A stretch of 64,000 nt of DNA from NCBI GenBank assembly GCA_018241665.1, contig JAFEDK010000030.1:1-64000 (forward strand). The letters are read 5' to 3'. The position numbers were made by a program, and so were the translations under genes. Below, in pieces: positions 42,017 to 44,694 of the stretch. This DNA comes from Pseudomonadota bacterium. GTDB taxonomy: Bacteria > Pseudomonadota > Gammaproteobacteria > Burkholderiales > Rhodocyclaceae. The notes beneath the pieces are model-generated. The model searched no databases and was not told the origin of the DNA. It saw only the letters and a program-made list of their open reading frames with translations. Within the stretch, counting starts at the first letter, position 1. Each line of letters opens with the position of its first letter.

Positions 42017-42981
42017 AGCAGTTTCTGCCAAACGATGGTGGGCCAGTTCTGGCTGCGGTCCAAAAGGACCTCCATGCGGACCATGGAGACGCCGAAGCGG
42101 GCGCGGCCAGTGGCGAGGAAATGCCGGCTGGTGGTGGCCAGCCGGGCGGTGTCGGGGTTGAGGTCCTGGGACGGCAGGCGGGCCTGGAAATCCGGCAGGT
42201 CCTTGAACCAGGCGCGGCCGCGCTGGACGATCAGCACGCGCGCTGCGTCGAGGCTGAGGCCGGGAATCGCGGCGGCAAGCACTTCCGCCGGCGCGGTATT
42301 GACGTTGATCTTGCTGTCACCGGGCAGGGCCGCCACGAAAGGGGTCAAGCGGGCCACCAGGTCGGGCGTGAAGCCGCGCACCTGGGTCAGCTCGCTGACC
42401 GCCAGCAGCGGGCCGTTGGCCGGCCGGCGTGCCGGTGTCTGGGCTTCGTACCAGGAGGACTCGGCACCGCCGGGCAGGCGTGGGGTGTCGTCGGCGTCGA
42501 GCCAGTCGAGCAGGGCTGACGCGAGGTTGAGGGCATCGCCCTCGCCGACACCGACAATGGCCAGCAGGCGGCGGAATTGCTCGACTTCGAACAGATTGGC
42601 GCCATCCAGCTGGACCAGGTTGTTGAGGTTGATGCGTCCGGACAGGTCTTGTAGTTCGCCGCTGACCTCGCCTTCCTCCACCGGCGTTGGTGGCACCTTG
42701 ACGGCCCAGCTCTCGCCGAGGTGGTCCACCTGGGTGGTGCGGGCATCCTCGGCCAGCACGTTGCGCGCCCAGTCCACCGCGCCACGGGCCAACAGGCGGG
42801 CCTGGGCCTGGTCGTGGCGGCCCATCACCTGGTCCATCGCCACGCCCAGGTCGCCGACCGCGGCGGCGGCGATGCTGGCGACCAGGGCCACCGTGAGCAG
42901 GGCGAGGATCACCGCCGCGCCGCGCTGATGGCCGGGCCGGCGGGGGAGGCCGAAAACGGAGGAGAAGGGGCGGCGGCTCAT
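42013..42981 (-). CDS. gspK: Type II secretion system minor pseudopilin K
   Basis: The 322-aa protein is the largest minor pseudopilin and forms the tip complex with GspI and GspJ. The leader ends in 'RPGHQRGAAVILALLTVAL', so cleavage would be at G/A, as is usual for GspK. The inserted helical domain and 'INVNTAPAEVLAAAIPG' are typical. The ATG at 42981 shares one base with the gspJ stop. Confidence 0.92.
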   Translation of the reverse strand: MSRRPFSSVFGLPRRPGHQRGAAVILALLTVALVASIAAAAVGDLGVAMDQVMGRHDQAQARLLARGAVDWARNVLAEDARTTQVDHLGESWAVKVPPTPVEEGEVSGELQDLSGRINLNNLVQLDGANLFEVEQFRRLLAIVGVGEGDALNLASALLDWLDADDTPRLPGGAESSWYEAQTPARRPANGPLLAVSELTQVRGFTPDLVARLTPFVAALPGDSKINVNTAPAEVLAAAIPGLSLDAARVLIVQRGRAWFKDLPDFQARLPSQDLNPDTARLATTSRHFLATGRARFGVSMVRMEVLLDRSQNWPTIVWQKLL

Positions 42982-43724
42982 CAGCGGAGGGCGATCATGC
43001 GGGTGATGGTGCCCACATCGGGCAGATCGAGCTCGAGGATCACCGCATCCGGCAGCGGCGCGCGGCGGTCTCCCGGTGGCCAGGCGTCGAGGCGGTTGTT
43101 GTTGTACAGAAAGCGCCAGCGCAGGTCGCGGATGTTGTCGAGGAGGGGGACGACCACGGGCTCGCCGAGGGGCTCGCGGCCACTCCAGCGCAGCCATTCG
43201 AGGCGCCCGTCCACCAGGCGGAAACCGACCCGGCGCACGCCGCGGCTGTCGTCGAGGCGCAGGAACTGGAACTCCGGGCCACCGCCGTTGGCGGCGCGGC
43301 CGAGGAGCATGGCTGGCGTGCTGGTGCTGGCGGACAGCGTCGGCGGGGTGCCGGGCGAGCCCCGCTGATCGCCGGGGGCGACGGCCTGCAGCAGGTCGGT
43401 GTCGATGCGCTGCATGCCGCGGCCAATGGCGCGCCAGCGTTCGAAACTGGCTTCCAGGCGATCGCGGCTGGTGGCGACTTCGGCCAGCGCGCGGTAGGAC
43501 AGCACGCCGAGGATCGCGAAGATCGCCAGCGCCACCATCAGCTCGATGAGGGTCAGTCCGCCTTGGAGCCGTGGGGTAGGCAGGCCCTGTGTCTGGCTCT
43601 GTGTCTGGCTCTGTGGGGGCGAATTCATTCGCCCGACGCGGGTGGCCCCGTGCACGCGGGCGAATGAATTCGCCCCCACAGAGGAAGCCCCCACAGAGGA
43701 AGGGATGGCGTACAAGGGCCTCAT
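42981..43724 (-). CDS. gspJ: Type II secretion system minor pseudopilin J, leader extended by a REPIN
   Basis: The prepilin site is 'RLQGG/LTLIELMVALAIF', followed by the usual GspJ body ('FQFLRLDDSRGVRRVGFR'). The first ATG (43724) makes the same ATGA overlap with the gspI stop as other genes of this operon, giving 247 aa. However, it puts a 56-residue leader before the cleavage site, because a 67-bp REPIN (43613-43679) lies inside the leader in frame and encodes 'VGANSFA' and 'GRMNSPP'. The REPIN also supplies an internal ATG at 43628, giving 215 aa with a 24-residue leader. A GspJ leader is normally short, so either re-initiation at 43628 or an unusually long leader must be tolerated. Confidence 0.85.
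   Translation of the reverse strand: MRPLYAIPSSVGASSVGANSFARVHGATRVGRMNSPPQSQTQSQTQGLPTPRLQGGLTLIELMVALAIFAILGVLSYRALAEVATSRDRLEASFERWRAIGRGMQRIDTDLLQAVAPGDQRGSPGTPPTLSASTSTPAMLLGRAANGGGPEFQFLRLDDSRGVRRVGFRLVDGRLEWLRWSGREPLGEPVVVPLLDNIRDLRWRFLYNNNRLDAWPPGDRRAPLPDAVILELDLPDVGTITRMIALR
43591..43614. repeat. 12-bp tandem duplication at the REPIN edge in gspJ
   Basis: GTCTGGCTCTGT occurs twice head to tail (43591-43602 and 43603-43614), abutting the left arm of the REPIN. In the gspJ frame it encodes the repeated SQTQ of the leader. Confidence 0.8.
43613..43679. repeat. REPIN-like REP doublet 4, inside the gspJ leader
   Basis: Perfect 22-bp inverted arms at 43613-43634 and 43658-43679, 23-nt spacer. 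On the coding (minus) strand the arm nearer the gene body reads ATG AAT TCG CCC CCA, creating the internal start at 43628. Tandem duplications flank both sides (43591-43614 and 43673-43702). Confidence 0.88.
43673..43702. repeat. 15-bp tandem duplication at the REPIN edge
   Basis: CCCCCACAGAGGAAG occurs twice head to tail (43673-43687 and 43688-43702). The first copy includes the outer end of the REPIN arm, so the duplication happened after or during insertion. Confidence 0.8.
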
Positions 43725-44107
43725 CGCAGGGGCCTCGCGAGGTAGCCGCTCAGGCGGGCGATGGCGTGTTGGTCCGATGCTTCCGAGAAAACGCTGACGT
43801 CCACCCGGCGGAACAGGGGGTTGGCGGTGTTCTTCACCTCTTCACGCCAGCGGTAGTTGCGGCCGGCCTGCTCGGCGCTGCCTTCATTGCTGCCGGCGTT
43901 GGGCCAGGCCTGGGTGGCGCGCAGTTCGGCCAGGCGGTTCTCGGCGATCCAGTCGCCGATGAGGCGTTCGCGCAGTTCGGCGGAGGACTGTGCGGTGACG
44001 CCCATCGCGCGGAAGGCGGCGGTCAGCGCAATGGCCAGGATGGCCAGAGCGACGAGGGTTTCGAGCAGCGTGAAGCCGCCAGCCCGGCGGGCGCCGGCAC
44101 AGCTCAT
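43721..44107 (-). CDS. gspI: Type II secretion system minor pseudopilin I
   Basis: The 128-aa protein has a short leader and a perfect prepilin site, 'MSCAGARRAGG/FTLLETL', with the E at +5, then a hydrophobic helix ('ALAILAIALTAAFRAMG'). The C-terminal body is typical of GspI. It overlaps gspH and gspJ by four bases each. Its normal leader of 11 residues contrasts with the extended leaders of its neighbours gspH and gspJ. Confidence 0.92.
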   Translation of the reverse strand: MSCAGARRAGGFTLLETLVALAILAIALTAAFRAMGVTAQSSAELRERLIGDWIAENRLAELRATQAWPNAGSNEGSAEQAGRNYRWREEVKNTANPLFRRVDVSVFSEASDQHAIARLSGYLARPLR

Positions 44108-44694
44108 GAGCTGCGGCCCGGCAGGGCCAGGCTCACGTCGCCGTTGGCTTTGCCAATCAGGCGTGCCTCGCCGCTCGGGGTGGCGACGCGCAGTTCGTAT
44201 TCGGGCGCCTGGGTGCCGAACTGCAGGCGCGGCGCGGCGGCTTCCGGCTGGCCGTCGATGCGCAGCCCGGACCAGTACAGGCCGCCGGGCAGGGTCTTTT
44301 CGGTGAATACCGGCGGATCGTTGAGGGGGCGCCAGTTGTCGTCCGGGTCGAGGGCCGAGAAGCGGTAGCCGTCGGGCAGGAATTCGATGACGATCGGCCG
44401 GCCGCGGACCGCCGCCCGGTCGGCGGTGGCTTCCAGCACGAGGCGCAGGCGTCGCAAGGCCTGGTCGGCATCCCGGCCGCGCAGACTGTCGAGGCCGAGG
44501 CTGATGCCGGTGGCCATCACGCCCATGATGACCAGCACCACCATTACTTCGATGAGGGTGAAGCCGGTGGCGTGGCCTCTCCGGGGATGCTCCTGTGGGG
44601 GCGAATTCATTCGCCCGCAGTCGCTGAACGACGCGACCGGGCGAATGAATTCGCCCCCACGGGGGGGGGCCAGGGTGGCGGAAGCTGTCGTCAC
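44104..44694 (-). CDS. gspH: Type II secretion system minor pseudopilin H, leader extended by a REPIN
   Basis: The prepilin site is 'RRGHATG/FTLIEVMVVLVIMG', followed by a GspH body ('GRPIVIEFLPDGYRFSAL'). The GTG at 44694 overlaps the gspG stop (GTGA), the pattern expected for this operon, and gives 196 aa with a 44-residue leader. A REPIN (44595-44660) sits in frame inside that leader, encoding 'GGEFIRP' and 'GRMNSPP'. The REPIN supplies an internal ATG at 44610, giving 168 aa with a 16-residue leader closer to family norms. No Shine-Dalgarno precedes 44610. Which start is used cannot be told from sequence. Confidence 0.85.
   Translation of the reverse strand: MTTASATLAPPRGGEFIRPVASFSDCGRMNSPPQEHPRRGHATGFTLIEVMVVLVIMGVMATGISLGLDSLRGRDADQALRRLRLVLEATADRAAVRGRPIVIEFLPDGYRFSALDPDDNWRPLNDPPVFTEKTLPGGLYWSGLRIDGQPEAAAPRLQFGTQAPEYELRVATPSGEARLIGKANGDVSLALPGRSS
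44595..44660. repeat. REPIN-like REP doublet 5, inside the gspH leader
   Basis: Perfect 22-bp inverted arms at 44595-44616 and 44639-44660, 22-nt spacer. As in gspJ, the arm nearer the gene body gives ATG AAT TCG CCC CCA CAG on the coding strand. A run of nine or more G lies at its upstream edge (about 44660-44670). Confidence 0.88.

Follow-up and report, generated by a model that had tools for sequence, protein, structure and literature searches.

A REPIN within the leader of the type II secretion gene gspJ of a Zoogloea genome, probably read in frame and removed with the leader

The gspJ gene, which encodes the minor pseudopilin J of a type II secretion system (T2SS), carries a REPIN in frame within its predicted leader, and a second REPIN lies in the leader of gspH in the same operon. 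The genome belongs to Zoogloea as judged by its relatives. We favor, at a probability of about 0.58, the reading that translation of gspJ uses the ancestral start, that the REPIN is read in frame, that the resulting extension is cleaved, and that the insertions persist since the leader is disposable.

The REPIN in the Leader of gspJ

The T2SS operon is located on the minus strand of the window (the whole stretch of DNA that was analyzed, 64,000 nucleotides). The gspG, gspI, and gspJ genes were recognized by Pfam, the remaining genes were read from the open reading frames, and all frames from gspG to gspK are open. GspJ was assigned by its T2SSJ domain and by the position of its gene after gspI in the operon. 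Its N-terminus shows the elements of a class III (prepilin) signal peptide, namely a glycine before the cleavage site, a hydrophobic stretch and a glutamate at position +5, with the predicted cleavage between G and LTLIELMVALAIF. The REPIN is located between ATG43724 and this site, and the frame of gspJ remains open down to position 42981. The element consists of GTGG, an 18-bp REP, a 23-bp spacer, the inverted REP and CCAC, and both REP arms are perfect. Up to the glycine before LTLIE, the leader comprises 56 residues if counted from ATG43724 and 24 residues from the ATG43628 that the REP supplies. An earlier, sequence-only reading had placed the element at the positions given in Table 1, described the overlap of the gspJ ATG with the gspI stop codon (ATGA), given both leader lengths and found the same MNSPP start encoded by the REP arm of gspH and gspJ; the parts of the element and the translations bear out these statements. 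As a further feature of gspH, a C9 run (minus-strand reading, window positions 44661-44669) is present between its GTG and its REPIN; a change in the length of this run would break the frame from the GTG, not that from the REP ATG.

Table 1. Positions in the window of gspJ, its neighbors and the parts of their leaders.
Feature	Positions	Strand	Remarks
gspJ, T2SS minor pseudopilin J	42981..43724	-	247 codons from the ATG overlapping the gspI stop; Pfam T2SSJ 65.2 bits, N_methyl 32.8 bits
Predicted prepilin cleavage site, Gly-Leu before LTLIELMV	43554..43559	-	N_methyl match
12-bp unit, about 2.4 copies, REP end plus flank	43587..43615	.	Period 12, run 17; translated QSQTQSQTQ
REPIN in the gspJ leader	43613..43679	.	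67 bp
REP arm, 3' arm in gspJ sense	43617..43634	.	Contains ATG43628
REP-supplied in-frame ATG of gspJ	43626..43628	-	Inside a predicted hairpin stem
REP arm, 5' arm in gspJ sense	43658..43675	.	Translated VGANSFA
15-bp unit, two copies, REP end plus flank	43672..43702	.	Period 15, run 16
Probable gspJ start, ATG within the ATGA shared with the gspI stop	43722..43724	-	Kept in 22 of 22 genomes compared
gspI	43721..44107	-	Short leader; Pfam T2SSI 101.4 bits
gspH, from the GTG overlapping the gspG stop	44104..44694	-	44-residue leader; N_methyl is the only Pfam match, identity rests on operon position
REPIN in the gspH leader	44595..44660	.	66-bp variant
REP-supplied in-frame ATG of gspH	44608..44610	-	Leader of 16 residues from ATG44610

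The REP Family of the Genome

The REPIN in gspJ is not a product of chance, because 15 sites of the window match the REP core with at most three mismatches (30 matches when both strands are counted, versus 0.18 expected) and this 5.43-Mb genome contains 649 exact copies of the 18-bp core. The core is present 163 times in the sister genome G006, the nearest relative by GspJ identity among the genomes compared; each of the 21 other genomes searched contains at most 23 exact copies, and 10 of these 21 contain none. Exact REPINs number 224 in this genome, 36 in G006 and seven in all other genomes together. The fixed spacing of the inverted pair, which forms a hairpin, is seen in 120 of 136 sampled exact REPINs with a 59-bp core (67 bp with the tags), and six of the 136 are 66 bp long, the gspH copy among them. 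The family is mainly extragenic (221 of 235 sampled REP clusters are intergenic), and the single Y1_Tnp match of the genome, the candidate RAYT gene, has the same REPs on both sides. At 318 REP ends, the reverse complement of the outer tetranucleotide was CCAC in 256 cases, CTAC in 43 and another sequence in 19, i.e., the outer tag is mostly GTGG with a minority of GTAG. According to the passages covered of PMC3733652, GTGG is a variant within the GTAG superfamily of REPs. An inverted REP pair with a spacer, hundreds of copies located mostly between genes, and a Y1-type transposase gene flanked by REPs are likewise the hallmarks of the REPIN/RAYT system in the passages covered of Bertels and Rainey (2011; PMC3116915).

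Start Codons of gspJ and gspH

The in-frame start codons of gspJ are ATG43724, TTG43715, GTG43694, GTG43679, GTG43655, and ATG43628, followed only by a CTG; those of gspH are GTG44694, CTG44673, and ATG44610. Between the REP ATG (43628 in gspJ, 44610 in gspH) and the cleavage site, no in-frame ATG, GTG, or TTG was found. Therefore, at least the 3' end of the REPIN is translated if GspJ is made, and the same holds for GspH. Real starts downstream of the REPIN, the objection that the sequence-only reading had raised against itself, are thus ruled out in both genes as far as ATG, GTG, and TTG are concerned; a CTG start is possible, though rare.

The best surviving rival, which we regard as unlikely, states that the REPIN replaced the start, that GspJ and GspH begin at the REP ATG with leaders of 24 and 16 residues, and that the REPIN is mostly an intercistronic spacer. 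The REP ATG is in frame in gspJ, in gspH and in the single REP of the gspH gene of another Zoogloea genome (G003), and the leaders would then be of ordinary length. A crude composition-based (hexamer) gene caller selected the REP ATG of gspH in each of three runs (864 kb, 1.66 Mb, and 2.46 Mb) and that of gspJ in the 864-kb run, with ATG43724 being preferred in the runs with 1.66 and 2.46 Mb. However, the REP ATG is situated within a very stable predicted stem and has no Shine-Dalgarno sequence obvious to the eye. Moreover, this rival has no need of an open upstream frame, yet the upstream frames are open through the REPIN in both genes, with length changes that are frame-neutral: the usual REPIN length of 67 bp shifts a frame, the gspH copy belongs to the few of 66 bp, and both end duplications in gspJ (15 bp and 12 bp) are multiples of three, although so are the units of 21 of the 52 arrays of the same survey. 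In predicted RNA folds, ATG43628 is paired within the long stem of a hairpin, whether the minimum-energy or the centroid structure is considered, whereas ATG43724 is unpaired in the centroid; in the minimum-energy structure it also pairs, within a local hairpin. This modeled difference argues weakly for the upstream start. A GAGGC motif about 10 nt 5' of the gspJ ATG is present in only nine of 22 genomes, including that of the window and its three nearest relatives.

The predicted 56-residue leader of GspJ exceeds the range of 6-26 residues given for prepilin leaders in the passages covered of one review (PMC4471445), whereas those of PMC10191384 describe leader length as variable and very long in some pilins.

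Comparison Across the Genus

A gspJ match was found in 22 of 23 genomes, that of the window included, and these 22 genomes, one per species, constituted the comparison set. In total, 37 loci were collected; the counts for the genus use 21 of them, and the other 16 are from outside the genus and served for reading of the leaders only. All 22 genomes have the ATGA overlap with an ATG start. Between the gspI stop and the gspJ cleavage site, 20 loci have 17-50 nt, one locus, in which no REP core was seen, has 83 nt, and the present locus has 164 nt. The gspJ leaders of the remaining 21 genomes showed no REP, so that the gspJ insertion was seen in this genome only. The corresponding distances are 17-32 nt for gspI in 22 of 22 genomes and 38-62 nt for gspK in the 21 measured; the short leaders attributed to these two genes in the sequence-only reading are therefore found across the genus. 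For gspH, the distances vary from 32 to 143 nt (20 measured), and the gspH leaders of several species bear repeats of three types: G003 has a single REP with its ATG in frame, G009 a REPIN from a different family (core present 15 times in that genome at no more than one mismatch), and G005 and G018 share a third repeat (its 21-mer in 12 and five copies, respectively, at no more than one mismatch). Long gspH leaders with another repeat thus occur in other Zoogloea, and in Z. ramigera NBRC 15342 the sole ATG, GTG, or TTG found is a GTG giving 49 residues.

This distribution bears on the suggestion of the sequence-only reading that the start hairpins are selected. In its explicit form, the hairpins would be selected regulators that tune the stoichiometry of gspI and gspJ via attenuation, RNA stability or translational coupling. 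The predicted hairpins within the operon are indeed strong (z -6.87 and -6.85), but a REPIN is a hairpin at any location, the gspJ element was seen in one of 22 genomes and the gspH elements belong to different families or are missing, so that we consider such a role very improbable.

The sister genome G006 has no REPIN in either gspJ or gspH. At the position of the REPIN in its gspH, the outermost bases of both REPIN ends appear, by eye, to be joined. This junction may be an excision scar; REPIN excisions are reported in the passages covered of PMC3116915.

Lineage-specific nonsynonymous/synonymous codon changes amounted to 5/21 in gspJ here versus 4/18 in G006, and to 2/14 in gspH here versus 3/11 in G006. 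In these sequence comparisons, selection on the mature parts of both proteins does not appear relaxed, but an insertion of recent date would have left no such trace in any case. That the insertions are recent, deleterious and transient and harm secretion would agree with the perfect REP arms and with a gspJ copy seen in this genome only, but is highly unlikely in view of the open frames, which extend from gspG to gspK, and of the lack of surplus nonsynonymous changes, little as the latter would reveal of a recent event.

REPs in Other Genes

Our own gene calls on 2.46 Mb (45% of the genome) yielded 1965 genes and 235 REP clusters (cores with at most two mismatches). Besides the intergenic clusters, six were located at a called 5' end, four at a 3' end and four internally. 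The six 5'-end cases are gspH, gspJ, an SLT_2 transglycosylase (C51:315958), an outer-membrane efflux protein (C18:165351), a cupin (C51:311532) and an open reading frame at C22:66844. The last 0.8 Mb, with 80 REP clusters, contributed no new 5'-end case.

The SLT_2 transglycosylase (L142 14690-16036, C51) contains an in-frame REP in what appears by eye to be the n-region of a Sec signal peptide, and within its first 60 codons a TTG at residue 41 is the only later start. In G006 (L306), a REP is found at the equivalent position with an ATG 3' of it; no clear REP was seen in G013 and G014. The TolC-like efflux protein (L220 5398-6663, C18; L315-L318) contains an in-frame REPIN in an apparent Sec leader, again judged by eye. 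G006 carries a degenerate REPIN in frame at the same position, and G013 and G014 contain what by eye are REP-like remnants. All four genomes share an upstream ATG preceded by GGGAG, and in G014 it is the sole start within 60 codons, apart from a TTG located four residues ahead of the matched stretch.

As cases in which translation of an N-terminal REP is fully forced, the four genes other than gspH and gspJ were rejected: the efflux gene has ATG codons just 3' of the REPIN, the G006 copy of the transglycosylase gene has an ATG after the REP, the cupin gene has in-frame GTG codons after the REP ATG, and C22:66844 has its own ATG 13 residues past the called start. Probable antisense frames (C10:1388-5020, C51:311579 on the plus strand, C18:164856 on the minus strand, and C17:72764) were dropped by eye, C17:72764 still being counted among the four internal clusters. 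A general affinity of REPs for prepilin genes was likewise rejected, as among the 17 readable of 18 N_methyl matches a REP within 400 nt upstream was found for gspH and gspJ only. Cleaved leaders account for four of five N-terminal REP cases (C22:66844 excluded) versus a crude signal-like background of 600 of 1926 genes, which suggests an enrichment, two of the four being gspH and gspJ themselves.

Outside the group of 5'-end cases, a frame of 719 residues (L159 5407-7563; C10:245407-247566) has two ABC_tran stretches with four in-frame REPs, arranged as two REPIN-like pairs, between them.

Tandem Arrays at REPIN Ends

One short tandem array flanks the gspJ REPIN on each side (Table 1). Of 318 outer ends belonging to paired REPs, 55 carry such arrays, versus one of 318 control sites 200 bp further out. 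Their periods range from 6 to 18, with 37 of 55 at 13-15 bp, and 49 of 55 units include a CCAC tag; usually the unit is composed of the REP terminus with this tag plus a few flank bases, further examples being C18:165350 and C3:134418. Singlet REPs have arrays at five of 41 tag ends versus one of 41 inner ends. In G006 the count was four of 72 ends versus one of 72 control sites, and in G003 and G008 together it was zero of eight ends. No account of arrays at REP ends was found in the passages covered of a few papers, the nearest parallel there being a 23-nt minisatellite within a MITE of Porphyromonas gingivalis (PMC4596501). The arrays suggest that some reaction takes place at REP tags, of which the same passages gave no description.

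Discussion

In the favored reading, a REPIN, presumably mobilized by the Y1_Tnp transposase acting as RAYT, would have inserted into a short gspJ leader and another into that of gspH. Translation would still proceed from the ancestral start, probably coupled to the upstream stop codon, and would pass in frame across the REPIN together with the duplications at its ends. The prepilin peptidase would then cut off the whole 56-residue extension at Gly-56 and leave the mature pseudopilin unchanged. The insertions in gspH and gspJ are tolerated probably because the leader is normally cut off before use; they would be neutral, and kept in a disposable leader without having a job of their own. Leader tolerance had been the other suggestion of the sequence-only reading, and of the two it is the one that gained support, from the open frames, from the absence of an ATG, GTG, or TTG between the REP ATG and the cleavage site in either gene, from the lack of excess nonsynonymous change relative to G006 and from two apparent Sec leaders that also contain in-frame REPs.

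Compared with the REPIN/RAYT system in the passages covered of PMC3116915, the present case differs in that two copies are located in the leaders of next-but-one genes of one operon and that short tandem arrays border many copies. Translated REPs and REP dimers, with the GTGG variant of the GTAG tag, resemble the intragenic GTAG/CGTC REPs of PMC3733652, which were described as translated in proteins, those of Thauera included. The passages covered of that paper suspect many or most N-terminal cases to be misannotated starts; here, in contrast, no ATG, GTG, or TTG separates the REPIN ATG from the cleavage site. Rickettsia palindromic elements and MITE fusions (PMC2229807) are also palindromic mobile elements in frame in protein genes and include YPO1552, in which a MITE partly forms a predicted signal peptide. 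As far as the passages covered of that source go, those elements belong to other families, and in the present case an existing prepilin leader is lengthened instead of a new one being made with the help of the element. The YPO1552 case was the nearest parallel found, and no report of REPs in export leaders was met in the passages covered of a few papers; a literature search for Zoogloea together with REPIN gave nothing. In-frame REPs in proteins are thus already known, and it is their retention in export leaders that looks new.

Export leaders may, more tentatively and with the odds against it, be a safe harbor for REPINs in general, where these would be translated in frame and retained as species diverge, and where arrays growing at their ends would further lengthen the leaders in a steady remodeling of the disposable ends of exported proteins.

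If the favored reading is true, these genes would indicate to what extent prepilin and Sec leaders can be stretched without loss, and would provide a natural test of start choice between an upstream frame and a REP-supplied ATG. N-terminal REPs could then not be dismissed as simple misannotation of starts.
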